A stretch of 64,000 bases of DNA, from the NCBI GenBank assembly GCA_964036295.1, contig OZ038465.1, positions 10,423,667-10,487,666 on the forward strand, in the 5' to 3' direction. This DNA comes from Plumapathes pennacea. Lineage: Eukaryota; Cnidaria; Anthozoa; Antipatharia; Myriopathidae. The notes under the pieces were generated by a model. That model made no database searches and was not told where the DNA came from. It saw only the letters and a list, made by a program, of their open reading frames with translations. Of the stretch, positions 31,264-64,000 are shown in pieces (the stretch's first letter is position 1; every line of letters starts with the position of its first letter). A program made the translations under genes and the position numbers.

Positions 31264-34200
31264 CTGAAAGGAAATTCAAATTATTTCATCCTCAAGAGCG
31301 GTCAGCTCATTTTCGCCTTTCACCACACTGTCACTGTAGATATGTCATGCAATATGAAGAATTCAGTTTTTGATAGCTTGCTCATCGAATGAAAGCTGAC
31401 AAAGCTATATTTCTCACTACATTAACAAATACATTTTCATACAGTTTCATAAATTTTCTTCTCAAAAGGTAGAAAAATCTGCATTTTCAACGTTTCAAAG
31501 CGACGACCAAACTGATCAATGCAAAGCGATGATTTTGATTAGCACAAAACTGTGAATAAGAGTAGTTGCAATATGAAAGGTTTTGCATTTGGGCGCAATT
31601 TCTCACCTGCATAGAAAGACGCTTCACCTCGGCGTTTTTCTGAACTGACTCAATATCACCAACAGCAAGACCAATCTGGACAAGACGAAACAATAAAAAT
31701 CAGTAAGGAAATACGAGTCTCTTTTCTGACACAGTGATCCCTTTGTCACATGACACTACAGCTTCTTATTTCCAGTGGCCGTTCTCCTTCATAGCTGTCA
31801 ATAAAACAGATAATTATAGTCTGTGTGCAACACACGACAGTAGCATATGCAGAATGTTTCTATGAACACGTGGTTGTTTTACTCACCAGTAGATTCATGA
31901 AAGCGATAGACATTATGCAACCAAATGTTAAGAACATCCAGCGGCCCATCCACATCTGCAGGCTCTTAAAAACAGTTTCTTTTGCTCCTTCTTCCTCTAC
32001 GAAATAGGTTGAATATTCCACCTCCCCGATCATCATGTCAAACACTTTAATCACAGACATCGGTAAGGTTTTGTACGCGACCTGTAGAGATAAGAACAAC
32101 GTAATAACATGTAACAAAAGTGTTCAGAGCGGGAAGCTTTTCACATTTTAGTTTTCTCACACAACATGTTACTATCCAATAGATAAAAGGATACCGCAGA
32201 AAACTTGATAACCAACCACTGATGCTTAAAAGGCAGGGTCAAATCCTTATTTAACAATTCTAAAACTATATAATATTGTTGAGATTTTGAGTTATATTTT
32301 CTACCTGCACAGTTATATTTTCCTATATAAATGTACATATAATCTCGCTTATTATTCCTGCCATGTTTTTTAGGAGAGCACCATCAAACTGAAGTCCATA
32401 CCAGCCTTAGTTCGTGCCGCAAGGGACAGGCCGCCATGCTGGTGTACTGAAGTTGTACTTAAACATGGCGGCTGTATACAAAGTTGTATCAAATTTTCTC
32501 AGAGAAAGTATCAATAAACTTACAATGTACGATCTGTCTAAATTTGACCCAGCCAGAGTATGATTTAATTCAATGGTTTACAAAGTTCACGTTACATTAA
32601 ACTCACCTCTTCCTCCAATAAAAGATAAAAAATAAGTCCATAAGCAAAAATCAGTACTGTGAACAACACGATGACCTGTAGGTAAACAAGGATGGTACAC
32701 GAAGTGAATAAAGGAGACTTAATTGTAAAGTGGCCATCTCAACCATCCAGTGTTTTTGTTTACATTTGGAAATGCTCAAAAAAAGAACGGCACTTAACAC
32801 GGTTCCTATTACGAAAAAAAAAATCAAAACGTGTTAGGTTGTGTCGGAACAAGGTGGTGATTTTTTTTTTCGTAAAAGATAAAAGTTTCAAATATTTTGG
32901 CCTTAAATAGGTTTCCATGACGGCATGGTTAGATTTCGAAGAGTTAGAAATTGGCACCCTATGAGCTGCAAATTGCAGTAAGTTTGTATTTATAATCATA
33001 ACTCTGCAAAATCTTCTCCTGTCGTTACTAAACATGTCAGTAGACAAACTAACCTTCAGGAGGGACTTGAGCACTTCAAACAGCATCATGACATAGATAC
33101 CAGATTGAAAAATACTGAAGAAAAGAAGTGTGTTGATGAAATCTCCTTTGCCAAATGCCCGCAAAATGCTATGCTGGAAAGTTTATAATAAAATTATGAA
33201 GCAAAATTTTAAAACTCTGAATTACTTTATTAGACACTATTAGGCCTTTCATACTTCATAAGTGTTGTTCCAATCGGTTAAATATTGAGGGCAATAAAGT
33301 TAAAAAATAACATATATATATACAGATCTTCTGAGCTCGGTACCCACAGCAACCACCACTGCAGATTGTTTTACAACAAACAGTTTTTGTTTTATTAAAC
33401 AAGTATGGCTCATTTGGGGGTGTGATATATTAACCCTTTTATCCCCACGATCTAGTCCGTGATTCCCCCAAACTTCCTTGAATAAAATGTATGATTAGTG
33501 TTATGAAAGTTGATAGTCCCAGATCACCCGCCATTTTAATTTCTTCATTGTGTATGTACTGCAAGGAGAAGTGAGCTATGAACACTTACGGTATACTTAC
33601 AGTTGGAAATAAACTAAAATGGTAATGAAGCCAAACAGCAGTGCGTTGAGACCCAACGCATACTGCTGGATGGTTGGCCTCTCTTGTACCGGCAGTAGCG
33701 TTAGCAAGGTCAGTATGAATGTCGTCAATTCCAGGAAATTACTGATGCTCAAGTATCGCCATCTCTGTGGAAAGTTATAAAAGTAATAAATGTCCAGTGT
33801 TTACGGCGGAAAGCTTTTCACATATTAGTTTTCTTACACAAGCTGTTATTATCCAGTAGCTAATAGGATTTCGCAGAAAATTTATGGTAATGAAAGAATG
33901 TCCAGTATTCAGGGCGGAAAGCTTTCCACGTATCAATTTTCTCATACAAACGGTTTCTATTTTTCAATAGATTATAGGATTTCTCAGAAACCGTCATATT
34001 GACTGTTTCCAGAGTGCTCAGTGTTATGTCCATGGACTCTTATACAAGCTCTTAAAATGTAAAATATGCAGAATAGAAACGGGAAAGCATTTTATGTTTA
34101 CATGCTTTGGTCTTCTAACCTTGTAACAAACAAATAGCTATTTACCAACATAATATTGACCCTTTTTTTTTTGGTATTAGTTATTATTTCGTGCAAAGCA

Positions 34201-34681: not shown

Positions 34682-37600
34682 TTTCCGTCTTTCTTTGTAT
34701 TTTTTCTATCCCTTTGTCTGTCTCTGCCTGCCTTTGTCTTTGCCTCTAATTCTGTCTGTCACATCTTACCCCCATAGAACAGTTCTTGGGGCCCATCATC
34801 TCATGCATACAGTACATGTACTGTGAAAGTACGCCCAGGAATAATGCATACACTAGGGCACCGAGACAGAAGACTGGCAAACCAATACGTGTCCTTTAGA
34901 GAGATAAAAATATATTCGTTATTTCTCTTTTCATGATTACAATCCTCTGGCAAAGAGCTAATTTTGAAGTTAGACAGAGTGCCTACGGTCTTCACCTCTT
35001 GGGGGGGGGGGGGGGGGGGCACTCTACAGTATGGAGCCAATTTCTTGAACGCTCTTTATATTCTCAGTATGTGGTCTGGGAAGGCTGTAACCCTTTCACT
35101 CTCAAGTTCTAAATGCAGCTCTCTCTCTCTCTCAACCTTTTAAGAAGAAATTTATGAGCGATTTAATGAGAATTTATAGTTTAATCAGCTTTAATCTGAG
35201 CAAGACATCAAAAGTCAAGTTCTCCATACTGTACGATATATCTTTGGTGAGGAACCCAAAGAACAAAATTGAATTTTACCACAACACACTAGTTTCTCGC
35301 TCTCTGATTGGTCGATTTACCGTGGTAAATAAGAGTCCAGACAACGATGCTGACGCCAGCATGTCACGTTTTGCAGCGAAATACAACGAAAGTTTCCTGT
35401 ATATTTCTAAATGTTGTGGTAAAAAACAAATTTCCACTGGTTTGCCGTGGTGTGGACTCTTATTTACCACGATTTACGTCATCACATGGTCAAAATTAGT
35501 TGCGGACTCACTCGGCGAAGCGCCTCGTGAGTCCACAACATTTTGACCATGTGATGACGTAAATCGTGGTAAATAAGAGTCCACACCACGGCAAACCAGT
35601 GGAAATTTATTAAATTTATCACTCTTGTGAGTGAAAGGGTTAAAATTTGCAAATCCCCACAAATTTCCCAAAACACAGTCTGTGTGTGTCCTGGTTGCTT
35701 ATGTTTTCTCCTACAAACCTGAGGAAGGTTATAAGTTTATACAGCCGTTTTCGGATGGCTGTCGAATGTAATCGTGTGATTGCTTTAGTTTTGCGTTTGC
35801 TATGCTCCAAACAAATTTAGCAGCGTTCGTGGTTAATCGGTAGCAAAAGCAAAACCTGATCCCGATAACGCAAGTCACTTTGGCTTCTGATTGGTTGAAG
35901 GTGTTTTCTTACAACTTCTGTGATTGGCGGAGTACTTACTTCAGTTTAGTTTTCGACAATCATCCAAAAACAGCTCTATTAATAGCTAGTAAAATAGTGT
36001 AGACCCCCGTAATTAAATTTGCGTACCATTTGAACTGAATCAACTTCCTGGTGAGAGGATGAAAAAGCAAGTCCTCGTTGCCGCTCTGCAATATGGACTG
36101 AAAGTTGAACACAATTTTAAAAAGAGGTCATCAGGTTATTTCAATTTGGTTCAGTAAAGTAAATTTCTCCACAGTGTTTTCCTTCAAAACAACTGCATTG
36201 ACCAGTGTTTTATCAGTTTTATCATCACGTGGCCGGCCAGAATACCCCGCCTCAACAACTGAATGTGCATAAGTGTGAAAGTGGATTGATGATTAGTTAC
36301 TAACTTCTAACTTGTTTGCAAAGCAAGTAGCAGGAACTGCTCAACTTAGTTTCAATTTAATTTTCTGAAAGTTTTGTTAATCCCGCAAAGCACTATGGGC
36401 AGACCCTGCACATGCGCACAGCCTTGAAGTTTCTTCCTAACTCACCAAAATACCACAGTACTGCACGCCATTCTTGTCGTACTTCTTATCCGGATCGGGA
36501 GAAAGATACTGGAAGTCATAAGTTATCTGCAAGAAAACGATAGTTAAAGTGACCCTCGCAGTTACGAAGCAACGTATATTATATAGACACGAGTGTTTTA
36601 CTGGAAAATATACCGTGCGTAAAATCCATACGAAACTACTCACTCGCAAAGCGCTCGCTCGTAAAATATTGTTTTTACCACTCGAAAATAAAATTCATAT
36701 CTTCGCGCCGCCGCGTAATATCCTCTATATATAGCAACACCTAGTATAGCTTGTGGGGTCGTGTAAGTAGCAATTGTAAGGATAGCCCGAGAAAAATGTT
36801 TCAAAAGATTTGAGTAATAACATCCACGGTATGAAAAGGTCCAAATAAGATTCAGAACAGTCGTGTAACACACTCTCCTCCCCTTTTGTTGTATTTTCCC
36901 TTTCCTTCTCTCAGTGCCCTGTCTCGTTGTGTGAGCACAAAAGAAACATTTTGACGGAGAATGCTGTAATAATTTCGGGAAAATACACTAATTTTAAGCT
37001 TGGGGAATAAATCTTAGTTGAAATGTCAAATAAGCATGACCCAAGCCTTCGATTTGATACACGAGTAAAGGTGATGTTACACGACAAAGTTTTTTAAGTC
37101 AACTTTTTTGCGCTAGACTTCTTGTCTAGTAATTTTCTAAACTATCAATTAACAGCAATCTTTGCACAAAATTCTGCCTTTGCCAAAGGCTTGCCGTCTT
37201 TGAAATAGGAGCTAAAACGCTAGTTACACAGTTGTAAGTGTTGCGCGAAAAATCGTTGTTAAAAATCGTGCTTACTCACCGAGTAGTCTTCGTAGGTTCG
37301 CAGGTGAGAAGAATAAGCGATGCACTTGTCCATGACAATCTGCAGACGGAGGCAGTCAAATTAACTAATTTAAAATGGCCACAAAAGGGGCACATTTAAA
37401 GGTCGTTTAACACGTTGGTTAGTGTTTTTCGAGACAGTGTTTTCGACTTTCTCACGACAAGAATCGCATCGTAAAAATCAACTCTACAGCACACAAACAT
37501 TTTAGTAATGTCGTATGCGAATTGTAAGCCAAATCGCACCGCGTGAATCGGCCTTAACATTACCAAGTTTGCGAATACGACTTTTTTCAAAAGAAAGTCA

Positions 37601-45800: not shown

Positions 45801-48800
45801 TGTACATGTAAATACAGCATGTGTGAAGAAGTTGTCAAAAATAAATCTGAAGGATACTATAGCAGTATCAACAACCCTTACTGTAAGAAGCAAATACAGT
45901 GGAACTCCATTAAAATGGCCACTATCAGGACATAAAAATCTGGCCATATTAACAGGGTTTTCATATAAGAAAATGACTGGGCGTTTGTTCCGCGGGACAA
46001 AAAATGGTGGCCGTAATAACGGGGTGACCGTAAGGTGGGGTTCCACTGTAGGGCCAGAGTCCTTGCAGTGGTGTTATACTGAAGCAGGCACATTTAAAAC
46101 ATTTTTTAATTCATTGCAGTTTGCAATTTTAAATAATTTATATTATAATAATTATAATAAAACCTTTGTACAAACTTGTCAACAGTTTGACATACACACA
46201 TCTACAACCACATGACCATATGATAATAAAGATTATTTTGTTTTTCTCACCAGTTTATCCACAACTTCATCCCTGCCAGCCTGCACAGCTCCATGAAGTG
46301 CGGTGGCATTATCATTATCAACTTCATTGACCCTTGCCTCGCCATCCACTAGAAGAATCTGATAATTTTGCAAAAAGTGATGTTCAGCTTAATATTACAA
46401 AAAAGATTGACATTTCATGTTACGTCTGGCCAAACAGACTCCCAGGTCGAGCCAACTCAACCCAAGTTTTTGACTTGGGTTTGACTTCTAGGCATCATTT
46501 GGCCACCTCAATTTGGCTTAGCCTGGCTTGACTTTGATGGAGCTCAAATTTCCAACAGGTGACGATAAACTCTACAGCTGCAGCATAGCGTAACAAGAAT
46601 GTCTGGTAACCCCTGGCTAGTGGACATAGCTTCCATCATGCCTTATGTAATCTATACTTTTCTCATGTAACAATATTATAACTGTAAGTTGCCATTAGAC
46701 ACCCACAGCACCTCAACACACTCCACATGTCCTCTTCGTGCTGCATAGTGCAGAGCTGTCTGTCCATAAATGGTGCGAGCCATAACATCCACACCATTTT
46801 TAACCAGAAGACGGCAAGCAGCTTGTGCATTGAATTTGGCAGCCATGATAAGAGCAGTACATTTCTGAGTAATACAAGTCCCATGGACCTTGATATCTAG
46901 TCGGATGATCAAATAAGAACAACAAGAGCGTGAGATAATGGGAAATGAAGAGACAAGGCATAGTCTATGCAGGAGACTCCCACATGATGCAGGGTTGTTG
47001 TTCTGTTTGTGTGTTGTGCTGATGGTTGTGCATTCCACTAGCTGATCATGCTCTCAAATTGAATATGACAATAACTGATGCAACCATCAACTTCCATGTT
47101 ACGTTCATTGGGAGATTTCCTCACCTTATTCCGAGTCATCATTTTAAAGAATCATGCAAATAATATTGTTACAAGACCACAGTTCACGCCATGTAAGTAA
47201 AACTAAGCCAGGAAACTCAAAGATTAGACACAGCTAGTACTTGATCGTGATTTAATTGAATGTACAATAAATTATAATTTTTCTGTTGTACCCAGGAAAA
47301 TAGGGCTAACTTGCACATGACGTGAACAATTTCCAATTGTCAGATGGTGATAGTGATGATCGCTAACAGTAATATTAAATAATGAATTCATGTCAGCTAT
47401 AAACTAGCTGAAAATTATTACCAATTGTATAGATTTAGATCTATACAGGAATAGCACTTCCATGCATGAAGTCTCAATTTACCGGCTCCAGCATCCAACA
47501 ACAACTGAATAATCTTGCATTGGTTTGTGCAAGCTGCATAGTGGATTGGTGCCAGTCCATCTTGATCCAATTTGTTGAGGCATTCCACTGTGCAAGATTT
47601 CCTGGAAAGCAATTCCTTGACCAGGACTTCACAGCCATCACGACAAGCCTGGAAACAGAAAATACTACAAATTCTGAAGAGAACAAAATTACAGGCTAGG
47701 GATTATCTTTGGTTATGTAATACAAAAGCTGTAAGCGGATGAATTGGATTTTTCAGAAGCAAAATTTTACCTCGTGCGGACGAAAAGCCGTGATGCAAGA
47801 ACCATAGTCTGCTCATAACACAGTGAAATATAGAAAATAATGGTGCCTTTCTGGTTTGAACGATTCATCCGCCATCTTGGAAGTGAGTCCCGCAGAAGGT
47901 TGGGTCCCAAGTTGTTCCCAGTCTCCCCGCGGGGTTTTACAGCAATTTCGTCGGCTATGTTAATATACGTTTTGCGAGTTCAGAATGCAGCACAATCACA
48001 CTAACTTGTGAAATGAGATCTCTAATAGTCATGCATTCAAAAAGTATATATATTTTTACAGAGCCTGCTTCCGGTGGTGTAAATTTCGAGGTCACAACCT
48101 CCTGACATCTTTCCATCAAAAATTACTTCAAATATACGTTTATTGTCCTCCGCGAAGATGTGGGCTAAGAGCTGAACTGAATTAAAACAGGCTGTAATGC
48201 TCACTGTAATATTCACTCCACACAATGACGCTTCCTCACCTCCCCCCTCCCCACTTGTGTGAAATTGTACCATGCCGATTTACACAGTCACGCTTCGCCA
48301 CACACAGTGGGAACATATTTAAAGAACTTTATTTGCTACATTTCATTTTCACAAGCTACTGAGTTGATAATATACTTGGAACCACAAAAAGTTGATGGAA
48401 CATGCAAACTAGGAACTAGGGCTAGGCCGCTAGGAACACTCTGTTTTGATACAATATTGCCCTCGGCAAACTCTTTGTTTTCAGATAGTTGCATTTGACT
48501 CCACCGACTCAGAACAAATTGTATTTAATTGAAACTGACGTGGGTTCCGATGCAATGTCACTTTTCATTTTAAATTTTCTCCGTTCTGTCAGTGACGCGG
48601 AGCAGATCCAATGTCAATTAAATTAATGTCTTGAAATAATATTTGTTTTAGCTGGCCGGCTGTGATTGAACTGAACATAGCAACTTAGGATTATTGTCCC
48701 TGAACTTCTCTTGAACGCGATTGCGCAGGGAAAAAAAATGAAACAAGTGTTGCCTTAAAACTTCAGCTATCTTACCTCGTGAAGTGATCTGCGCAAATTC

Positions 48801-48997
48801 AACGGCAATCCCTTGAAGATCAAATCGTCTTCCACTTGTGAAACGCTTTCATTGGGAAGCACGAGAGAATTGTCCAGCGAATTTGTTTTAGTTTCCGTAG
48901 GTGAGCCCATTTCGACTTCGGACGAGCCTGTCTCGACTTTGTTTAATTCTGTCCATTCTGAGCTAGAAAAGCGCTGTTCACCCTCCATTTCTTGCAA
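29308..48997 (-). CDS. TRPA1: TRPA1-type ankyrin-repeat cation channel, complete with first exon a
   Basis: Twenty-nine exons join in frame to 1137 residues plus stop (human TRPA1 is 1119). Order: first exon, 16 ankyrin repeats, a pre-S1 linker, S1-S6 with pore, the TRP-type helix starting LLIGLAVGDIESVQKNA, and a C-terminal coiled coil. The linker (RWREVLNN, ITYDFQYL, LLFHPLTRKLIQFKW) and post-S6 segment match TRPA1 rather than other ankyrin TRP channels. TRPA1 channels are plasma-membrane Ca2+-permeable cation channels gated by electrophiles, temperature or other noxious cues depending on species. Stop TGA is at 29308-29310. Three further first exons (51223-51345, 52884-53060, 55233-55403) could replace exon a. 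No coding lesion was seen. Confidence 0.95.
29515..29858. mobile_element. Palindromic foldback repeat, copy 2
   Basis: Nearly identical over its whole length to 5511-5853, including GGATATTACACGGCGGCG at the left, the central hairpin and the AAAACACTCGTGTC right end. The high identity of the two copies implies fairly recent activity. It lies in the last TRPA1 intron. Confidence 0.8.
31607..33168 (-). CDS. TRPA1: TRPA1 exons 23-26: S4-S6, pore and TRP helix
   Basis: Exons 33054-33168, 32607-32675, 31887-32081 and 31607-31675. They encode LRAFGKGDFINTLLFFSIF, VMMLFEVLKSLLK, the S5 helix VIVLFTVLIFAYGLIFYLL, a pore segment with MMIGEVEY, S6 (FLTFGCIMSIAFMNLLIGLA) and VGDIESVQKNAEVKRLSMQ. The human filter is MMLGDINY, so the acidic position is Glu rather than Asp here. 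Exon 23 has two AG acceptors 5 nt apart; only the second (CATAG) keeps the frame. Confidence 0.94.
33601..37820 (-). CDS. TRPA1: TRPA1 exons 16-22: pre-S1 linker and S1-S4
   Basis: Exons 37736-37820, 37280-37339, 36446-36526, 36027-36097, 34770-34893, 34353-34466 and 33601-33764. The linker reads WREVLNNTKHDGITAMRRLV, IVMDKCIAYSSH, ITYDFQYLSPDPDKKY and SILQSGNEDLLFHPLTRK. The first membrane helix follows (GLPVFCLGALVYALFLGVL), then MFLIAFAFVNILWEGYQ, LELTTFILTLLTLLP and LGLNALLFGFITILVYF. By alignment with human TRPA1, the Cys in DKC corresponds to Cys641 and the nearby MPC lies close to Cys633, whereas the position of the highly reactive Cys621 (KCPIT) is occupied by HDGIT. Electrophile sensing may therefore differ; that is inference. 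Confidence 0.93.
34608..34677. repeat. (C)n(TC)n simple repeat in TRPA1 intron 20
   Basis: About 22 C residues followed by about 23 CT units. It fills a large part of the 303-bp intron between TRPA1 exons 20 and 21; on the transcribed strand it reads (GA)n(G)n. Confidence 0.95.
34999..35019. repeat. Poly-G tract
   Basis: A run of about 20 G residues upstream, in transcription, of TRPA1 exon 20. Such tracts are unstable and prone to sequencing error. Confidence 0.9.
35146..35260. repeat. Dispersed repeat of about 110 bp, first of four copies
   Basis: The copies at 35146-35260, 49345-49455, 52290-52400 and 59430-59540 share TTTAATCAGCTTT, then GAGCAAG or a variant, AGTCAAGTTCTCCATACT and a GATATATCT-GGTGAG core. 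Two of them lie between alternative TRPA1 first exons. No termini were recognised. Confidence 0.7.
35429..35608. repeat. Large near-perfect palindrome in TRPA1 intron 19
   Basis: The left arm contains TTTCCACTGGTTTGCCGTGG and GATTTACGTCATCACATGG; the right arm gives the complements CCATGTGATGACGTAAATC and CCACGGCAAACCAGTGGAAA. The arms are about 85 bp with few mismatches around a centre near 35519. A partial copy of the GGTAAATAAGAGTCCA motif lies at 35331, so the element may begin near 35270. Confidence 0.88.
36571..36733. mobile_element. Palindromic foldback repeat, copy 3, shortened
   Basis: It carries ACACGAGTGTTTTACTGGAA at the left and CACTCGAAAATAAAATTCAT with a GCCGCCGCGTAATATCC end at the right. 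It is the 5511/29515 repeat in opposite orientation, lacking most of the middle. It lies in the intron between TRPA1 exons 17 and 18. Confidence 0.75.
37957..47648 (-). CDS. TRPA1: TRPA1 exons 2-15: sixteen ankyrin repeats
   Basis: Exons 47483-47648, 46712-46896, 46251-46358, 45551-45659, 43695-43792, 42885-42932, 42506-42630, 41994-42042, 41199-41402, 40620-40703, 40271-40353, 39397-39558, 38687-38798 and 37957-38126. Canonical cores include APIHYAACTNQ, TALHYAARRGHVECVE, TAFHLAAREGHSNI, TPLHLASSHGQLDIVKMLV, TPLHYSAATCQLAIIELLV, TPLHLAAGKGGAQV and TPLILASWCGSVDVVKLLL. Repeat 5 carries an insertion (AKRKGHSPKAE) and repeat 16 (NCLDAAIEARE) is divergent. The exon 3 donor GAG|GTGCTG was chosen because it keeps repeat spacing and phase. 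In characterised channels this region forms a long cytosolic stack used in gating. Confidence 0.94.
38804..38821. repeat. Poly-A tract at the TRPA1 exon 14 acceptor
   Basis: A run of about 18 A, read as T on the transcribed strand, lies right before the exon 14 acceptor (TTTTCTGTAG) and forms an unusually long polypyrimidine tract. Confidence 0.85.
39270..39343 (-). pseudogene. Partial duplicate of TRPA1 ankyrin exon 13
   Basis: The last 74 nt of exon 13 and its donor are repeated about 127 bp downstream in transcription. The duplicate reads HLAASEGGAQVCTLLLKHRA then EVDYR and a GTAAG donor; the real exon reads HLAAGKGGAQVCAFLLKHRA. The frame is open and several changes are synonymous or conservative. 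It lacks the first half of the exon and a clear in-phase acceptor, so normal use is unlikely. Flanking intron sequence (TCTTACCTGTAATC) is also duplicated. Confidence 0.75.
39700..39780 (+). other. tRNA-like A-box sequence, possible SINE head
   Basis: TGGCCGAGCGGTAAGGGG matches the A-box pattern of Leu/Ser tRNAs (TRGYNNARNNG). No B box is found at tRNA spacing, and the cloverleaf cannot be completed. It may be the 5' part of a tRNA-derived SINE in a TRPA1 intron. Confidence 0.3.
39850..40255. repeat. Degenerate minisatellite, unit about 163 bp
   Basis: GATCAAGACATGACAGAACA near 39856 recurs as GATCAAGACACGGCAGAACA near 40017. GGACAAAACTGAG and GCCTGGGCAGAGAAAAAC recur at matching offsets, and a third partial unit follows. 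It fills most of the intron between TRPA1 exons 12 and 13. Confidence 0.75.
42828..42876. repeat. (C)n(CA)n simple repeat beside TRPA1 exon 7 donor
   Basis: About 27 C residues followed by about 11 CA units end a few bases from the exon 7 donor (42884). On the transcribed strand the donor GTATGTGCTG runs directly into (TG)n and then (G)n. Confidence 0.95.
43016..43400. mobile_element. GGGCCCGG inverted-repeat element, copy 3, with nested insertion
   Basis: Its ends match copies 1 and 2 (GGGCCCGGTTTTTCAAAGC and CTTTCGAAAAACCGAGCCC). A 129-bp insert at 43054-43182 splits it and is flanked by a 13-bp direct repeat, AGGCTAATCCTCG. The insert holds a run of 13 A. It lies in the intron between TRPA1 exons 6 and 7. 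Confidence 0.85.
43840..44017. mobile_element. Inverted-repeat element with CAGTCGAAC termini
   Basis: 178 bp from CAGTCGAACCGCGCTATTTC to GAAATAGCGACGTTCGACTG; inverted ends of about 20 bp with mismatches. TA follows on the right and CA precedes on the left, so one flank has mutated. MITE in the intron between TRPA1 exons 5 and 6. Confidence 0.8.
44024..44256. mobile_element. Inverted-repeat element with AAGGCCAATTCACAC termini
   Basis: About 233 bp. The left end AAGGCCAATTCACACTGGAC matches the right end GTCCAGTGTGAATTGGCCTT exactly for 20 bp and then extends imperfectly (GCGTCG, TTACGGCGTG). It adjoins the previous element with only a few bases between. Confidence 0.88.
44659..45369. mobile_element. 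TTAA-flanked inverted-repeat element, piggyBac-like
   Basis: 711 bp with GGTGATTCCCTAG at the left and CTAGGGAATCACC at the right, each bordered by TTAA, the target used by piggyBac-type transposons. Internal GGTGACCCC motifs occur near both sides. Short open frames inside (44886-45125) show no transposase features, so it is non-autonomous. Confidence 0.85.
45897..46048. mobile_element. Short TA-flanked element with CAGTGGAAC termini
   Basis: 152 bp starting CAGTGGAACTCCATTAAAAT and ending GGTGGGGTTCCACTG, with TA on both sides. A related single end lies at 57350-57386. MITE in the intron between TRPA1 exons 4 and 5. Confidence 0.85.
48776..48997 (-). CDS. TRPA1: TRPA1 alternative first exon a
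   Basis: 74 codons from ATG at 48997 (a second ATG three codons in) to a phase-0 donor GAG|GTAAGA. The sequence is acidic and Ser/Thr-rich and ends VSQVEDDLIF then LNLRRSLHE. Joined to exon 2 it gives SLHE-ACRDGCEVLVKE. It resembles exon c (VSQAEDDAIYGG, LNIRRSLHE). The closeness to exon 2 makes it the default start. Confidence 0.8.
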
Positions 48998-51222
48998 GCC
49001 TCGAGAAGCCTGCGCCGGGAGCTTGCGTGTTTAGACAAAGCCTAACAGCAGGAGACTTGGAATGACTCTGGCGCAGGAACAAAAACATAATTGACGTCCC
49101 ATGAACCCTTCCACACATGAACCCAGATTTACGACTGGTGTATACCGGAGCCGGGCTAGTGGTGTAAAACTGTTACCTTTGATTGGGTATAGCTTTCCGA
49201 GCAGGACTGAAGTTCATAAAAGGTCTTTCGTTTGTTCAAACTGGATCAGTGACGGCTGCACTTATTATTTTGTTCAGTATATTGACATGAACACCTTTCA
49301 ACCCTTTCACATTTTAACTGCTCAAAATGCAGATTCTCGCAACTTTTAAATGCATGAGTGATGTAGTGAGAATAAAAGTTTAATCAGCTTTCATCAGAGC
49401 AAGGTATCAGAAGCCAAGTTCTCCTTACTCTATGATGTATTTCTGGTGAGAAACTGAAGGAGAAAATATGAGTTGATTATTCTTGGCCGGAAGGGTTAGT
49501 GTAGTTGACTATCGAAAAAGCATTAATGGCGAAACCAATGTTTAACTGAATTTGTAGTTGATGAAAGCGTTTGGCATGGACTGATCTATCCTGCCCTGCT
49601 GTGTTGTGTGACTTGCTAGAGAAATTTTCTCTCGCAACAGCTATAATGTTATTAGTCTTGAAAAATAATCACAACAAACGCACTACCGCATATTCATGAG
49701 TTTCTGCGTCCTGCCACTCTACTCTAATACTAAAAACGCAATAAAGAAACTACGGCTATCAATTACAGGCTCATACATCGTGGTGCCGCCCACACGCTTG
49801 TCGACAATGTAAACGAACTAGCTAAGCCATTCATTGTGCAAAAGTAGACCTTTTCAAGTGTATGATGTATTCTCTCATAATTCCTAATGACTGCCATTTA
49901 AGATTGGTTGACTATGACCACTTTTCGGATCAAAAATAAAATACCGTGTTCCCCGATTGAATATTAATTATAATTACATATTATTAGTTACCACTGGCAG
50001 AACATCGGTGTTTAGTTCGGATGCGGCGCAGAGAAAACCGACGGCCTCTTGACACCAAAACCGGAATAAATTGCTGTCTTTCTCTAAAAGAAAGTCATTA
50101 AATTAATCAAGCTTTCAATTCTTTTTATGAATCTAAAACATATATCTGTTTGGAAAACTTAAAAACCACTAATTTAACTTCTTCTACTTTTGGGTTATAA
50201 TGCTGAGGCAATGATCTTCAGCATCAAATTATATGTTATTATTCGAAGACTGAAGTGGTTCCGGCAAAACTGAAACCCCATCTTCTTCCACTATTGCAAC
50301 AATAGGAGAGAACACCTTTATATACTGAAAGCTGTGCCAAAACAGCTCGACAGTTCGCACTATTTTAATCAATTTACCTGTCACATTCTGAAATAAAGTT
50401 GATTTCATGCACAATCTATAATAATTAAATTCAGTTATTGAGCAAATCCTAATTATGTTTTGCTTCATTGACTATTCATCGGTAAAACATCGACATCGTT
50501 TTAGATTTATCAGTCTTCGACTAGCATCGCATAAATCTTAGAGCGTGACTCGGCACATATAATACCGAATGGATCGTAAGGTATGATCATTCAAACTAAA
50601 AGCTCTCCATAGTTGCATTCCAACAGCAATATTACCGTTGCTAGTGAAACTTCCAGAAATTGGTCCGCGATCGTTTTTGGTTTAAAGTCGGCATTTGGTT
50701 TAGTTTTTTTGCACCTGAAGTTTTATTTATAGACAGAGAAACTGACATGGAAAATTTGGGCGTCATTTGGACACGCAGCCACTGTCTTATAACTGACCAA
50801 AGGATTACGTGATAACACTTCAGTATCTGAAAGTGAGTTCGACTTGCCCGCGCAGCTCTAAACATTGTAATACTACCGTCAATACCAACTTAATAAAGTT
50901 GCGGTCACTTACAAGTGAAATGACTCATAACATGATATATAAGGCACTGGTTTTCGCAGTTATGAAGCAACTATGTCTTGAATGGCTGCCTGAGCATTTC
51001 ACAGGGCACCTCAGTTGAAGTAATCTGAACAAAACTCAAGCAAACTATTTTTTTGGACATTTACATCTTGATGTGAATTACATGGGTAGCACCGCCAGTA
51101 GGATACCAGCAAAGAAAAGAAAAACAAGCTGGGAATGATACCTTAATAAAAATTGAAATTAATATTGTCTCTCTGGGGTACAAAAGTATAGATTTTGTGA
51201 ACGCTGTTTTGCATGTATTTAC

Positions 51223-51345
51223 CTTGTGTAAGGACATCTCACCTACTGAAACACCCACATCGATGCTATCATTGCCTCTTAACGGCATCTGACTATTGGA
51301 GAGATCTGAGACGCGTCGAGAATTCCATTTTTTCATCAACTTCAT
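51223..51345 (-). CDS. TRPA1: TRPA1 alternative first exon b
   Basis: 41 codons from ATG at 51345 to a phase-0 donor CACAAG|GTAAAT. It reads MKLMKKWNSRRVSDLSNS and ends GEMSLHK. The RRVSD block and SLHK end resemble exon d (CRRVSD, SLHQ). The donor phase fits exon 2 exactly. Transcription is not shown by the sequence alone. Confidence 0.6.
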
Positions 51346-51724
51346 GATTGTCCTCTAATTAGCTTCAGAAATTGATTTTTAGCTCTTTCGGTTCCATAAA
51401 ATAAAATTTATGTATTTACAAATGCTGCAATTGTAATGTTAATGTACCAGAGACATTTGAAACTGACCGCTTTGTGTGCGGGGGCGAATAAGTGTCCGGT
51501 TGGTCACTTTACACAAAAGATGACATCACTAAATACGCAGCTGTATTGTCTGAGGTTACGAACACTGACAACTATGATCTACACATCTGACACAGTTTTA
51601 TGCAATTGAACTGATTGAACTATAAGTATTCTGCAGAAAATCTGAACCCCATTTGACTGAACCCCATGTGACGACCTATCTTTGGGGACGTGGAAAATAG
51701 CTGCTATATTTCTTGCCCTGCAAG

Positions 51725-51784
51725 GTAGTACCTAGTCTGCTCGCAGCCGTTGCGACCACAAAAACGGCTGCGAGCAGACTAGGT
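51725..51784. repeat. 24-bp-arm palindrome between first exons a and b region and window 52 kb
   Basis: TACCTAGTCTGCTCGCAGCC is mirrored by GGCTGCGAGCAGACTAGGTA with a loop of about 10 nt. It sits upstream, in transcription, of first exon b and resembles the head-to-head ends of a small transposon. Confidence 0.85.
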
Positions 51785-52883
51785 AGTAATCCCAACACTT
51801 GTGTTTTGCGGTCTACCGTCTGTGGCCGCGGAGGATTCCCGGACCGCGCGCCATTCTGGGATATGATTTTTAAAACTGCAAAATGGCGGGCGTAAATAGA
51901 TCCGTGCGGGGTCTAATGTTTGATGCATTCTTATACGTCGAGCAATCATCGAATTTGATTCTAGCAATCCAACTCGGCAGAACGGCGACGTCTAAAATGG
52001 AATTCCTCGGAATTTTCGTTAAAAATGTATGAAAAATCGATGACAGTGGTCCGTGGTGTTCCGCAAATTTGTTGCAAAATTTTGAACGATTTAAAAAACT
52101 TGTGACATGTTGCAGCACAGCAAATATGGCAAAACTGAGCGTTCGAGATGCATAGGGTGTTCCACCTGACCGAGTTTTATCGCAACACTTAGTATCGTTG
52201 CAAATCGACCAGAGTGTAGCACCAGCTAATAATAATAATCAACATTTTTAATCCTGAGCTCAAAATGCAATTCTCTCACCTTTCAAGAAGAGCTAATGTA
52301 TGAGTGGTGTAATGAGAACTGATAGTTTAATCATTTTTCATTTAAGCAGGCCATCAAAGTCAAATTCTGCATATAACGTATGATATATCTCTGGTGAGAC
52401 CTCCCTGAGGAAGAAATTTGAAGTTGATCCCTTTTGGAAGAGTGATTGAACAGCTGCTGTGTCCACACGCCTAGCAACAAAGTATGCCTAATTGACCATG
52501 TTAAGTTTTGCTCAAAAGCCGGGAGTTTCAAGTGTACAATGTCACTTGAATGATACCATACCTGTTAAGTTAAACTCAAAAATGAATTTTTGCACTAAAC
52601 ACTAAAAACTGGGTGTAATGCATAAAAAAAGAAAAAAACGAACAACGGTGGCTTGATTGAGTATTGATGGTAACTAGAACAGATTATCATTTATCAGTGG
52701 TAGACTAGAAAACAAGCCTCGTTCACACCAAATTAAACCTATTAAAAATAATTATATTGATGAGGCTTTCAATTTTTTGGCCAAATTTGCATGAGTTTGT
52801 TTCTAAAATGTCTAACAAATATAGCAACTTGGAAATTGATCTTCTGGCCTTATCTTCTTGCTGTGAATTTTCAAATGTCTTAC

Positions 52884-53060
52884 CTCATGAAGTGATCTGC
52901 GAATATTTAACCTACAACCACCGTAGATCGCGTCGTCCTCCGCCTGTGAAACGCGTTCATCATTGAGCACCAACAGACCACTCCGAAGAGAAATTGTTTT
53001 AGTTTTAGAACACGAATCTGTCTCCTTGGACGCTTTGATTTTGTTTGATTTTCTGTCCAT
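52884..53060 (-). CDS. TRPA1: TRPA1 alternative first exon c
   Basis: 59 codons from ATG at 53060 to a phase-0 donor GAG|GTAAGA. It reads MDRKSNKIKASKETDS, then RVSQAEDDAIYGG and LNIRRSLHE. It is a clear paralogue of exon a, including some similarity upstream of the ATG (AAGCCAACAACAGG near 53120 against AAGCCTAACAGCAGG near 49038). Confidence 0.7.
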
Positions 53061-55232
53061 TCTAAGCGAGATAGACAGTATTCTGCATGCACTGATTCCT
53101 GAAAAGGCTGTGTGTTAAGGCAAAGCCAACAACAGGGAAGGAGGCCGAGCAGTTCTTCTAATGAAATTGACGGAGCGAATCACAAAAAACGTGACATTCC
53201 CTTTCAAATTACTACATACGTCACTTTATAAAGCGAAATGAAAAGATAAGCCTCGAACCGTTCATAAGTTGGACCAATCAAAAAGCCAACATTATTGGTT
53301 TTATAAAGACGCATTGCCAAGTGGCCTTACTCGATTAAAAAAAACACCTGCACTACTTGAGCTGAGTATTAGGTCAAAGGTAGAAATTTCGTCTGGCCAT
53401 TATAGGTTCAACTAAAACATTACGTGTCTATTCCGGGCTGGATCGCGGCCGTAGTTCGTTGCGAAAAACCACTGAAAAATATATCGCGAGATAGAATATA
53501 CACGACGAAAACACGGACACAAGTGCTTCCGGAAACGTCAGGAAATGAGAGACAGTAGTATATTTCGATAAACTCATCTCTTGGACAGCAACAAAAGAAG
53601 CATAGGCTGAGGAGACGCTGTTTATACTAATTACTCATCCAGTTCAGTGCCGCTGGGTCTCCGCAGAGCTTTTACACACAGTTCAAGGCCTCATGCATGT
53701 GCAAGCGACTTTTATTTCGACCTCTGTGATTGGCGGCGTACTACATTTTTCGTCCGCACTCACACCAGTCCCGCGCTTAGCTTTGTTGAAATTAAAAGCT
53801 TAGCGACCGCGCCTTTTAGCTACATGTTGTTGATGGGTAATCAGTAGGTGAATATACTTTGTCTGTTGGAATAATTAGATGCTCAGGGTGGGTTCATTCG
53901 GTGCGGTACTTATGGACCTTCGGGGGTCATGTACATATATACACATATAAGCCGGCGGCAAGATAAATCTGGAGAAACATGGTGACGAAATTAGGCCTTG
54001 AAACAAACTTCAATCAAAATTAAAAGTAAGAGGTTATCTCTAGAGCTTGCTAAACATGTCAAGCCAAACAAAGGCAAAGTTAATGGTACAAGATGAACTA
54101 TCATTTTTCTTTTTTTCGGAAGGCACCTGTTTTGGCGAAAACGCGGACTAAAAAGCGAAGGGCAAATGTTTGACCTGCTGCAGTACTGACTCAATATGTG
54201 ATAAAACCGTACCATAAAAGTACCATAAATTTAGAGCTACGCACATGTAAGCTTATAGCTGTCCATTTGTTGCGCAAATGCGCAGCAGTTTTGACATATA
54301 AATATACCGCGGTGCCCTGATGATTAGAATTGAACGATGTTTTCTTAATTTTCATTTATACCACCGGCGGAGAAAATACGGACTTTCGATACTTAATTCT
54401 ACGCGACCGTTTTTTTTTTCCGACAGAAAATTGTCAAATTATTCAGGATACTATTTTATTTTATTTTTTTAAATCGTAAAGAAACATCACGTTCGACAAA
54501 CCACCATTACCAATTCTCGGTTACTAACAGCTACGAGAAAACGCGGAGCTTACTTAAAATGATATCCGTTTGAGGTGAAGTGTTGTAGCAAACAAGGACT
54601 GAGAGTCTTGAAAGTCTGAAGTAACGAATTTCTGCTGCATTCTGAATTGTTTGTGGACTAGAAAACACGTGATATAATGACTAGTCGAGTTCGCTGGTGA
54701 GTGTAATTATTTGTCAAAAAGTAAACATTCTTTTTTGAAAGTTATACACCCAGAAAATATATGTACTTCTTACATCGAATTCTACCGTATACCAACTAAT
54801 TTCTCGGTACATGTTTTGTTTGCCTAAAATGACTGCAAATCAAAATAAGCTAAGTTTGCCAGAAGAAAAAAAACGACTGTCTACTAATAATTTTCCCTGA
54901 CCCTCTTGCATTAGAAGAGTGACGCAGCAATAGTACAAGTTTCAATAACAGATAAGCATCAGCGGCTACCGGACTCACGCATCATATTTATTAATTTGAG
55001 CAAACTTCAGATGACATTTTTGCATCTTTAAAACAATTATTTCTGATAAGGTTGAAGCTGAAAGTTTTCGAAAGGCTTTTGATTGATAGTCGAGGGAATT
55101 AAATAGAAAACATAAAAAAGGAGAGCAACACTAAGAAAAAAATAAAAGCAAACTAACTTGAAGACGAAAACTAAAGTTGGCTTCGTATGGTTAATAAAAT
55201 AGTTAAAAAGAGCTATAAACATCCGCCGTTAC

Positions 55233-55403
55233 CTGATGTAGGGACACTTCCTTGCACAGACCTCTGGTGACGGTATGCAGGAAATCCGAGACCCGTCGGC
55301 AAGTCCTCTTTTTGAGCCGCAAACTCATGTCGAACGAGTTACCTTCTGAAAAATCGTTCTCTATTTCTAGATCAAAATATTCGTCACTAAGCGTTTCCTG
55401 CAT
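55233..55403 (-). CDS. TRPA1: TRPA1 alternative first exon d
   Basis: 57 codons from ATG at 55403 to a phase-0 donor CATCAG|GTAACG. It reads MQETLSDEYFDLEIEND, then CRRVSDFLHTVTRG and KEVSLHQ. It is the most upstream candidate, about 7.6 kb from exon 2, and a paralogue of exon b. Confidence 0.6.
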
Positions 55404-57394: not shown

Positions 57395-57895
57395 CATTGA
57401 GTCGTCCGGTGCTTGAGGGTTGGTAGAGACCCCAGTGTTGCCTTGAAGAACTGATCTGAGCTCACTGATTAACAACAACAAAAAAGGCTGTAGAGTTGGT
57501 GAAACCTCGTGGTTCTGACAGGTCTGAAGACCGCTTATTATCGTTTCTGTACCCAGAAAATTTGCAACCAACGAAGCCTTAGATCTTCAACAGGCAGAAA
57601 TATATCCATTTCAGTATAAGCCTTCCTGGACTGTTGTGACACTCCAGTACAGCGTTCGTGAAACATTATGTCTCCATTTGGCTGTATAACCCAAGTGTAA
57701 ACTCTGTGGGAAACTAATGTAAAGGAGACGACTGTGCTTTTCAGAGCTTTGGCCACGTTACAGATTCCATTTTGGTCTGATACCTGGTCTTCAATGACCA
57801 TTTCATGTGCGTAAGAGTTGGAGGAGAGCATTAGTTCAGCAAGTGCTATTGCGCATTCTCTTTCGGCAATAACAAGGGCTTTACCTCTTTTTTTT
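57395..57895 (-). pseudogene. TPR/CHAT-protein fragment (TTC28-like), frameshifted
   Basis: The minus-strand reading from 57888 gives GKALVIAERECAIALAEL, then VVSFTLVSHRVYTWVIQPNG and CTGVSQQSRKAYTEMDIFL. This resembles the end of the TPR array and the start of the CHAT region in large TTC28-like proteins, which are very abundant in corals. Near 57555 the frame shifts and continues as FLGTETIISGLQTCQ. There is no start, the rest of the protein is absent, and a long T/A tract (57890-57918) abuts it. The family assignment comes from memory of the motif style and is moderate. Confidence 0.45.
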
Positions 57896-57919
57896 TTTTT
57901 TTGTTTTTTTTTTTTCCAG

Positions 57920-60900
57920 AAACAGAAGTGTTAAAATTGATCTCTTATAGGCAGAAATACACGTACCGATATCCAGGTTTGGTGAATTCTTAAATAATTC
58001 TTCGAAACGTGCCATGAGTTACTAGGAGACTTCTCAAACGCTCCGCTCTGATTTGCTGTAACCAAAAGTTACGCCAGTACGGCGTTCGTAAACTGAAAAA
58101 AAGAATAGTTTACTACTAAATAAACGAAACTTTTTGTCTTTTTCCTCATTCTACAAAGCACCCTGAAATCTGTGACAATATTGGCGGCGTATTCAGTCTG
58201 CAATTAGCACGGCACTATTAATTCTACCTAAACTCCAACCACAGACCGTGTAGCTTGTGTCCTTTGAAGTAAAACGTCAACGCGACAATTTACTATTGCT
58301 TGGCCATTCTATTAATTTTATTATCATTTCGAAATAGCTCTTTTAGCCATGTCATAATGAGATAATGATACTGTATTACCAAAACACGACGAAATATGGC
58401 GGTTTTTAGTTGAAGTATAGTAGCGTTAAACTCTTTCACTCCGGCCCGGCAAGAGTGATCAACTTCAGTGTTTTCAGTTCAATGCATAAATCATACAGGG
58501 CAATCTGCATTTTGAGCTGGGGACTGAAAGGGTTATCTGAAAATCTGGATACTGAAATATTTCTCTCAAAGTTTATTTGACACGTCTAAGTTAAAAATAG
58601 CTGTTCGCTGGTTTTTGATCAAACCTTGGCACTAATTGACCAAGGTCTTGGAAGAGGATATTTGGATATCCCTGGAGCTTTTAAAACAAACAACTCCTGA
58701 CAACTTCATTCTGTCACCAGAGATATCTCATACAGGTTATCAAATCTGGTCAAATGCTCATTTTCCACTCTCCAAACTGTTCGCGAGGAAAATGTATGAC
58801 GGACTACCGTATCAAATTGCTCAGCCTTGTGATACAACATTCTTCTTCTAGTATTCTTGTATGAGAAGAAAATCGTGTTGATTTTCTGTCGACTATCTGT
58901 CCAAAGCATATTTAAAACCCTTAGCCATCTAACCATTACAATGAAAATGTATTACAGGTAGACACAAATTGGGAATTGATCATTCCATAAGCTTTTGTCT
59001 GGGCAAACTATCAAACGCCAAACTCTTATCACTGCATGTTATATTTCTGGTAAAGACTGAAAAGAGAAAATTGACCACTCTAAGTTAAAGCAGCACAAAT
59101 CAATATTATTAATATTTCTAATAATAACTGATAACCCAAACAACTTCAGACTGACAAGTCCACTGTTTTGTTGCATGGAAACACTTGGTAAAATAAGATG
59201 GAAATCACTTTTCTACAATAACCATCACTAAAGTATAAATCAGGTGCAGTGATTTGATATCTTACCATAAACTACAGCCCTACATACCGGCCATTAGACT
59301 AGCATTATATCTTTTGAAGATTTGCGTGCAATTCCACTCAGAAATTGCTTGTCACTTAGTACTTTTAATTTAAACTTGTGATTACTGAGCTCATAAATAT
59401 AAATCCTTCCACCCATAAGCAGAAGAAAATGGATGAGTGACATCGTGAGAATCTATAAAATGCTATTATCAGCTTTAATTTGCGCAAGATATTGAAAGTC
59501 ACGTTCTTCATATCTCTAGTCCGTTGAGAAACTGGAAGAAACATTTGAAGGGTTGTGAAAATAGATTAACCATGTTCAACAATAAATCACAGCACTGCTA
59601 ACAAACAACCCAGTCCTCATACTACAAGTGTTATCGTTTAACTGTAGATAAATTCTGTAATTGGCTGAGAGCAAATGGCATAACTATTAATATCGTAGAT
59701 TTTTAAGGTGCAATGATTTTACAGCTCAAGTATCCTCACAAAGTTCATTATAGCCATATGATAAACAAGTAATTAATCACATGAGGTACTTGTGCAATGG
59801 TTTACATCAACTGTGATGTTTGAGAAAAACAATCCATTGACTGATACAATTTTCAAACATGTAATAGTTCTCAAATATCACAACACAAGAGTGATCTATA
59901 TCCTTAAGTTCATATTCATATGTTTATTTACCTATTTATCCCAGTGGTGTAGACAAAAGTGTAAGATTCAGATTAAAAGAAAAAAGGTGATTTGAAATGA
60001 TACTAGCAAAATAATATTATTGGCCCATGTTTAGTCATGAAACATCAACTTTAACAGAAAATCACAACATCGTCACCTTTCTTCAATCAACTGAAACGAC
60101 CCACACAGACCGAAGTAAAAACTTACATGATGCAAAACATCAATGATGCAAGGAAAACATGCCAGCAAATATCAAAGACGCTTCCACAGGAAGAACAGCA
60201 GCACTGACTGCGTTTACATAACATGTACATTGTACTGTACCAGCAAAATACTTCCTACCTCAATCACCAAGAAATGTCGCAGCTCATTCCACAACTTCAA
60301 AAGCTTGCATCAGCTAACTCTAGCAGAAGGTGAGACCAAGATATATCTACAGTATTTTAAAGACAAGTGTTACAGTAAAAGTTTTGAGGCATTAAACACC
60401 ACCTGAAAGCATGCTGGTGGGCATATACCTGAATATAATACACAAAATTACAAGTAATACTACTATTATCATTTAGCCAATCAGAGCAATGTCTCAAATG
60501 AAACAAACATTTCTCCTCATCTGTTTCACAGCCTGTAATGAACCACAATCTTCTTCCTGTGGCATATACCAGTACTCCATCAAAACAAGTATTTTCCTTC
60601 GAAGCTGTACCACACTCAGATCTTGTTTTAAGCTTCTTTTTTTAAATTTCTACCAGCAAATGGCAATATTGTTGTTAATTCCTCTTAAATAGTTCTCTGT
60701 GACAGCTAGCCTTGAGGTCAGGTCTTCTCCCTCCACTGTTTTCCATGTCATACATGGCTTGCTGCAGTTCTGACGACTTGGATGGAAGCGAAGATCTACT
60801 GTGACTATTACTATTTGTTCCATCGTGAAAATCCACCTACAGCACCAGCTACGGGAAAGGCATGCTATGTATGTCCTCAGGTGCCTGCTCACTTAGCAAG

Positions 60901-61095: not shown

Positions 61096-64000
<2,905 letters not shown>

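Follow-up and report, generated by a model that had tools for sequence, protein, structure and literature searches.

Does the 5′ part of this hexacoral gene provide a single coding start for one channel, or several interchangeable ones? A first-pass annotation of the window, by which we mean the whole 64-kb stretch of DNA that was analyzed, had claimed four first exons for a TRPA1 gene and a single tandem duplication as their origin. Our reading is that a TRPA1-type gene has four alternative coding starts in its 5′ part, which in the direction of transcription are exons d, c, b, and a, each of these first exons being predicted to splice in phase 0 to exon 2. On the genomic sequence, we give this reading a probability of roughly 0.7.

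A TRPA1-type channel gene

Four minus-strand features identify the membrane part of the gene, namely an exon with the pre-S1 TRPA1 stretch (35951..36094; LLFHPLTRKLIQFKW), a membrane segment exon recognized by sequence match (33597..33764), a pore and S6 exon (31884..32108; MMIGEVEYSTYF...MNLLV), and a C-terminal TRPA1 stretch (31604..31675; IGLAVGDIESVQKNAEVKRLSMQV) that is 71% identical to the human protein over 24 residues. When the membrane pieces, as assembled by us, were joined and compared with PDB at a cut-off of E 0.001, all nine matched sequences proved to be TRPA1, including those of human and fly, with a best E-value of 2.6e-31. No membrane-channel family exceeded the Pfam cut-off with either of the two pieces given: the joined membrane piece matched no Pfam family, and the pore exon alone matched PKD_channel below the cut-off. 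Ankyrin exons occupy the stretch between 47.6 and about 38 kb, giving the long N-terminal ankyrin domain. Exons a, 2, and 3 together matched Pfam Ank_2 (E 1.3e-22), and exon 2 aligned with repeat 1 of human TRPA1 (residues 64-122; 31%; E 0.006), while the ankyrin part alone matched many ankyrin proteins, with TRPA1 not at the top. By these matches, the gene is a TRPA1-type channel gene, and to that extent its earlier identification was correct. A TRPA1-like clade has been named in cnidarians by a review (PMC11526382).

Five other places in the genome matched the membrane query, but at 32-37% identity, so that we saw no further close copy. Long open frames of 222-331 codons were observed in other TRPA-like membrane regions on one contig (C1), at 9.97-10.09 Mb and 14.07 Mb.

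We take the electrophile-sensing residues before S1 of human TRPA1 to be C621, C641, C665, and K710. In the corresponding region here (37820-36450, minus strand), inspection by eye revealed a C641-like cysteine (MDKC) and a K710-like lysine (QFKW) but no cysteine at the C621-like (TKHDGITAM) or C665-like (YLSPD) place. Electrophile residues alone do not define TRPA1 proper. Elsewhere in the gene, the end of an ankyrin exon (about 39479-39390) is partly repeated in tandem, with its donor, just 3′ of the original, at 39352-39270 (minus strand); by eye the copy has no acceptor and is probably an intronic remnant.

Surroundings of the locus and the mitochondrial contig

Upstream of the locus, a minus-strand exon at 63453-63818 encodes a forkhead domain (Pfam E 8.4e-17), which we take to be FOXK-like. 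Between this gene and exon d lies an open frame of 130 codons with no Pfam match (57538-57930, minus strand). A palindrome at 51788-51726, detected as a 66-base inverted self match of 82%, is perhaps a small inverted-repeat element.

The contig that represents the mitochondrial genome has 17,711 bases and an A+T content of about 60%. With genes named by eye, ND5 is split around ND1 and ND3 only, COX1 is also split, an endonuclease-like frame lying between its parts, and ND6 is followed by ATP8, with COB elsewhere. An ND5 intron holding only ND1 and ND3 is described for Actiniaria, Antipatharia, and Zoantharia in two papers, with at least seven protein genes at this place in stony corals. The mitochondrial block given there for actiniarians, cox2-nad4-nad6-cob, is unlike the ND6-ATP8 order observed here. 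Length and A+T content agree better with Antipatharia than with Zoantharia, and the animal is therefore most likely a black coral or a near relative rather than a stony coral. COX3 and COB each continue in adjoining frames, which looks like the result of single-base assembly errors.

Four candidate first coding exons fit one second exon

All four candidate starts are read from the minus strand. The first of them, exon d (55403-55233), comprises 57 codons and ends in ...EVSLHQ at donor GTAACG; exon c (53060-52884) has 59 codons, ending in ...IRRSLHE at GTAAGA; exon b (51345-51223) has 41 codons, ending in ...GEMSLHK at GTAAAT; and exon a (48988-48776) has 71 codons, ending in ...LRRSLHE at GTAAGA. 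Each thus leaves in phase 0 at a GTAA donor and fits one common exon 2 (47648-47483, minus strand), which begins behind the acceptor TTTCCAG, encodes the remainder of ankyrin repeat 1 followed by repeat 2 (ACRDG...LLDAGA), and leaves in phase 1. Further ankyrin repeats follow in exon 3 (46896-46712, minus strand; 3′ end approximate). The four ATG frames with their SLHE, SLHK, SLHE, and SLHQ ends are real features of the sequence, at the positions first assigned to them. Since an in-frame stop lies 12 to 57 bases 5′ of each of the four ATGs, d, c, b, and a can be regarded as start-bearing coding exons, preceded by a leader exon or by none. In having several ATG exons that share one exon 2 in the same phase, the locus agrees with TRPA1 genes that use alternative first exons.

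The shared ending is not due to chance

We looked on either strand across the 64-kb window for ATG frames of 30 codons or more that run into the junction [ST]LH[EKQ] followed by GTAA, and we obtained exactly four, namely exons d, c, b, and a; the same scan yielded none in 100 shuffles of the 9.85-kb region. In its loosest form (.LH. at GT), the pattern had six matches in the window, compared with 0.15 per shuffle; of the two additional ones, one lies within exon d and the other at 13.9 kb. Across the 290-Mb genome, a 16-base pattern for the shared ending, TCNYTNCAYVARGTAA, occurs at 62 sites, four of which are these exons, on one strand and within 6.5 kb; the same pattern read backward, as a control, occurs at 127 sites. 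From the 62 genome sites, simple arithmetic gives an expectation of ~0.001 SLHx/GTAA sites per 10 kb of one strand. These patterns were devised post hoc, with the exons already seen; even allowing for this, two extra sites beside a and c would not be expected by luck at such a frequency. The common SLHx ending of the four exons is not a product of chance.

A structural account of this ending is at hand. Ankyrin repeats start with x-x-L-H-x-A-x-x-x-G, and the joined sequence SLHE/ACRDG is this start motif interrupted by intron 1. Intron 1 would therefore split the first ankyrin repeat between x-L-H-x and A-x-x-x-G, and any start exon ending in S-L-H-x would rebuild repeat 1. A usable start exon would thus have to provide S-L-H-x or something similar, which would explain why all four exons end alike and suggests a structural reason for the position of the switch point. 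We compared the predicted forms with a, b, and d against Pfam: ankyrin matches span the exon junction in the form with b (residues 34-96) and in the form with d (residues 52-112), while in the form with a the best ankyrin stretches among those listed lie further on, with a below-cut-off match at residues 66-124.

Exons c and a are duplicates, and d and b are probably homologous

Likeness among the start exons is clear for c and a and moderate for d and b; comparison with shuffles revealed none for the remaining three pairs, d and a being treated below. Exons c and a are 68% identical over 211 aligned bases (E 3e-12), and their proteins, both of which carry an acidic E-D-D, align with a score of 90, which none of 2000 shuffles reached (their mean was 23). 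As a further control, 2 of 2818 random window pairs were as good, in a window that holds repeats. The alignment continues 5′ of the ATG, as had been asserted, for about 100 bases: the flank of c at 53109..53206 aligns with that of a at 49024..49113 (both minus strand) and may represent a promoter, leader, or splice region. Only 1 of 500 shuffles was as good for 100, 150, and 200 bases of flank, with 4 of 500 at 300 bases, and from 200 to 600 bases 5′ no likeness was found (195 of 500 shuffles as good). Downstream, ungapped identity is 14 of 20 over the first intron bases and then falls to 5-6 of 20, and this drop suggests that the exons were kept while the introns decayed. In the reading frame, ps is 0.454 and pn 0.263, a relation reversed in both wrong frames, over only 39 codons. 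Exons a and c thus look coding and kept, and by their alignment they clearly arose by duplication.

The likeness of d and b had also been claimed, from their common RRVSD and SLH. It holds up in part, and we grade their homology as probable. With SLHx excluded, 11 of 2000 protein shuffles were as good; at the DNA level, this was true of 1 of 300 shuffles, and of none of 500 when the exons were compared by themselves. Random window pairs cut to the length of the exons did as well in 5 of 4681 cases, and when flanks were included about 1% of 2812 pairs did so; the flanks themselves are not alignable (122 and 256 of 500 shuffles as good). The common part, M-x-L...K-K...R-R-V-S-D, is in frame and begins at the second in-frame ATG of d (55328), so that MSLRLKK..CRRVSD there resembles the start of b, MKLMKK..SRRVSD. 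The R-R-V-S-D of both exons fits a basophilic-kinase site, and their SLH is encoded by different synonymous codons. Exon d also aligns with a at the protein level, where 29 of 2000 shuffles were as good, but at the DNA level 261 of 300 were; since d scores on a nearly as it does on b, the protein values for d and b are only moderate.

These values bear on whether all four exons are used. Perhaps only one or two are, namely a and possibly c, with b and d being decaying copies or chance frames; the modest d/b homology and the unalignable flanks of both exons would be in keeping with this. Against it stand the intact frames, donors, and SLH of b and d with their synonymous changes, as well as the low expectation for further SLHx/GTAA frames and the failure of any of the 100 shuffles to yield such frames. 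We regard so restricted a use as unlikely and retain the reading with four starts.

One block copy or separate events

The simplest history proposed for the array was duplication of a single 4.06-kb block holding two promoters, supported by near-equal distances between ATGs. The d-b spacing of 4058 was reproduced, while that of c and a is 4072 rather than 4063. Moreover, the ATG of c aligns within exon a in another reading frame, and since the ATGs are not homologous, their near-equal spacing was rejected as evidence for a block. Homologous anchors lie 3980 apart for RRVSD in d and b and 4108 apart for VSQ in c and a. Alignment of the two blocks, put forward as a check, recovered exons c and a with their ~100-base flank; the interiors from d to c and from b to a scored 56, which 18 of 279 random window pairs equaled, and the introns showed no likeness beyond chance. 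The same interiors beat 100 of 100 shuffles, but we hold window pairs to be the fairer control.

A match of 71% between 52428-52258 and 49477-49320 was also considered and rejected as block evidence, because its offset is 2951 instead of about 4000 and the element is a dispersed repeat. This repeat, of ~160-190 bases on the minus strand, has one copy between c and b and the other between b and a. Used as a query, 52440-52250 matched itself and at least 39 other places on many contigs (40 scored of 2746 first-look candidates); the 49.4-kb copy was not among the 40 matches listed.

Exons c and a on the one hand and d and b on the other may therefore have been duplicated in separate events, or d and b may not be homologous, the 4-kb block never having been copied. 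Interiors and introns no more alike than random window pairs would be expected in that case, and the two anchor spacings differ by 128 bases. The alternating order d-c-b-a argues the other way, as does the in-frame d/b alignment, and the 128-base difference is near the length of the 158-base repeat piece at 49477-49320, which lies only between b and a. We consider separate events possible but the less probable history. The order d-c-b-a and the similar distances favor a two-exon block copy, which remains the simplest reading and a plausible one: a single old copying of a two-exon block would give both d/b and c/a, and its non-coding parts could since have lost their collinear likeness by decay. 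Thus, of the proposed block duplication, order and approximate spacing stand, while interiors, introns, and ATG spacings lend it no support.

A genome search with exons a, 2, and 3 as the query gave at least 123 matches (150 of 489 candidates scored). Among these, the matches to the exon a part were exon a itself and c, the latter at 55% over residues 24-72; all others fell in the ankyrin part, apart from one long ankyrin frame that begins at residue 37.

Choice of start and proposed function

The sequence with its frames and donors, the homology of c and a, and the TRPA1-type identity of the gene are established here; that each start exon is used in mRNA is our inference, as are the one-block history and the function. 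Each start would place its own cytosolic tail, of 37 to 67 residues, before the common ankyrin domain and pore, and the choice among them would be made by separate promoters or by splicing from a common leader exon. Only for c did a simple filter detect a TATA-like site (at -245). Pyrimidine-rich acceptors are present 5′ of d (55495), c (53158 and 53062), and a (49068 and 49042); b has none within 200 bases by a crude filter, and simple filters revealed neither a clear acceptor nor a TATA-like site 5′ of it. The earlier suggestion of two promoters in the duplicated block therefore loses its exclusive standing, as a common 5′ leader exon fits too, given plausible acceptors near d, c, and a, though not b.

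With a single promoter, a non-coding leader exon 5′ of d would be joined to one of four mutually exclusive starts. The acceptors 5′ of d, c, and a are compatible with such an arrangement, as is the position of the Scaptomyza start exons 5′ of others within TrpA1 (PMC12132172); the lack of an acceptor near b speaks against it, and so do the mite isoforms, which are attributed to separate initiation sites (PMC4929936). On balance, we rate a single promoter as a possibility with clearly less than an even chance. Whichever way the four starts are selected, their tails might govern the response of the channel to temperature or chemicals, its level at the surface, or the cell type, by analogy with TRPA1 of fly, mosquito, and mite; this is a tentative proposal, to which we give slightly less than even odds.

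Comparison with known alternative starts

Tandem duplicated start exons on one common exon set are known from UGT1A and the clustered protocadherins. The variable exons there are large and many, whereas here there are four short tails, with one pair clearly duplicated.

Closer in kind are Drosophila and Anopheles TrpA1, in which one channel body is joined to different 5′ exons, each bringing its own start codon (PMC5068967, PMC11471635). With the resulting N-termini, fly and mosquito TRPA1 isoforms are reported to respond differently to temperature and to chemicals (PMC5068967, PMC11471635, PMC6934445), although in Aedes the heat difference between isoforms was not significant (PMC6934445). 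These genes have two alternative N-termini, compared with four candidates here, and a MAFFT comparison revealed no similarity between the tails. The parallel with insect TrpA1 drawn at the outset is nonetheless a fair one, and it is sharpened by the position of the fly switch, apparently at the same residue of the first repeat. The part in which the fly isoforms differ is given as the N-terminal 62 residues (PMC10073219), from which figure the exon border would fall exactly between residues 62 and 63. In the solved fly chain, residues 59-67 read DYLE/AAESG across this point, the counterpart of SLHE/ACRDG here, and the fly switch thus appears to lie at the matching place in the first ankyrin repeat. 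This comparison rests on the ankyrin motif together with a pairwise alignment that is weak (score 18); a MAFFT alignment of all N-termini was dropped for this purpose because it misplaced the fly sequence. Repeat 1 of the human protein aligns with the second repeat of the fly protein, so the split repeats are possibly not orthologous. If the swap of tails at an old phase-0 intron in repeat 1 predated the split of cnidarians and bilaterians, fly and hexacoral would switch at the same residue because the switch point was inherited, and this lineage would have doubled the set to four by tandem duplication; we think so ancient an origin unlikely. Among the matches listed from the open-licence literature, no title or abstract opening mentioned a cnidarian TRPA1 with alternative first exons.

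The TRPA1 gene of the Tropilaelaps mite resembles the present one in having unique ATG-bearing 5′ exons on common downstream exons; its three unique 5′ exons, attributed to different initiation sites, yield three isoforms and alter chemical sensitivity (PMC4929936). Two of the three mite isoforms share extra upstream exons, and the isoforms were tested experimentally; the available text of that report describes no duplication of start exons, in contrast to the duplicated c and a (PMC4929936). Scaptomyza TrpA1 offers a further likeness, in that start exons (L and S) were added at the 5′ end within a lineage (PMC12132172); that gene, however, belongs to a drosophilid fly and its transcripts were verified, while the array described here is read from genomic DNA. 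By means of alternative N-termini, arthropods put one TRPA1 gene to use in different senses. In a hexacoral, a four-way version would, if true, show that this device also occurs beyond the bilaterians, and a single channel with four natural tails would provide material for studying how the N-terminus tunes TRPA1.
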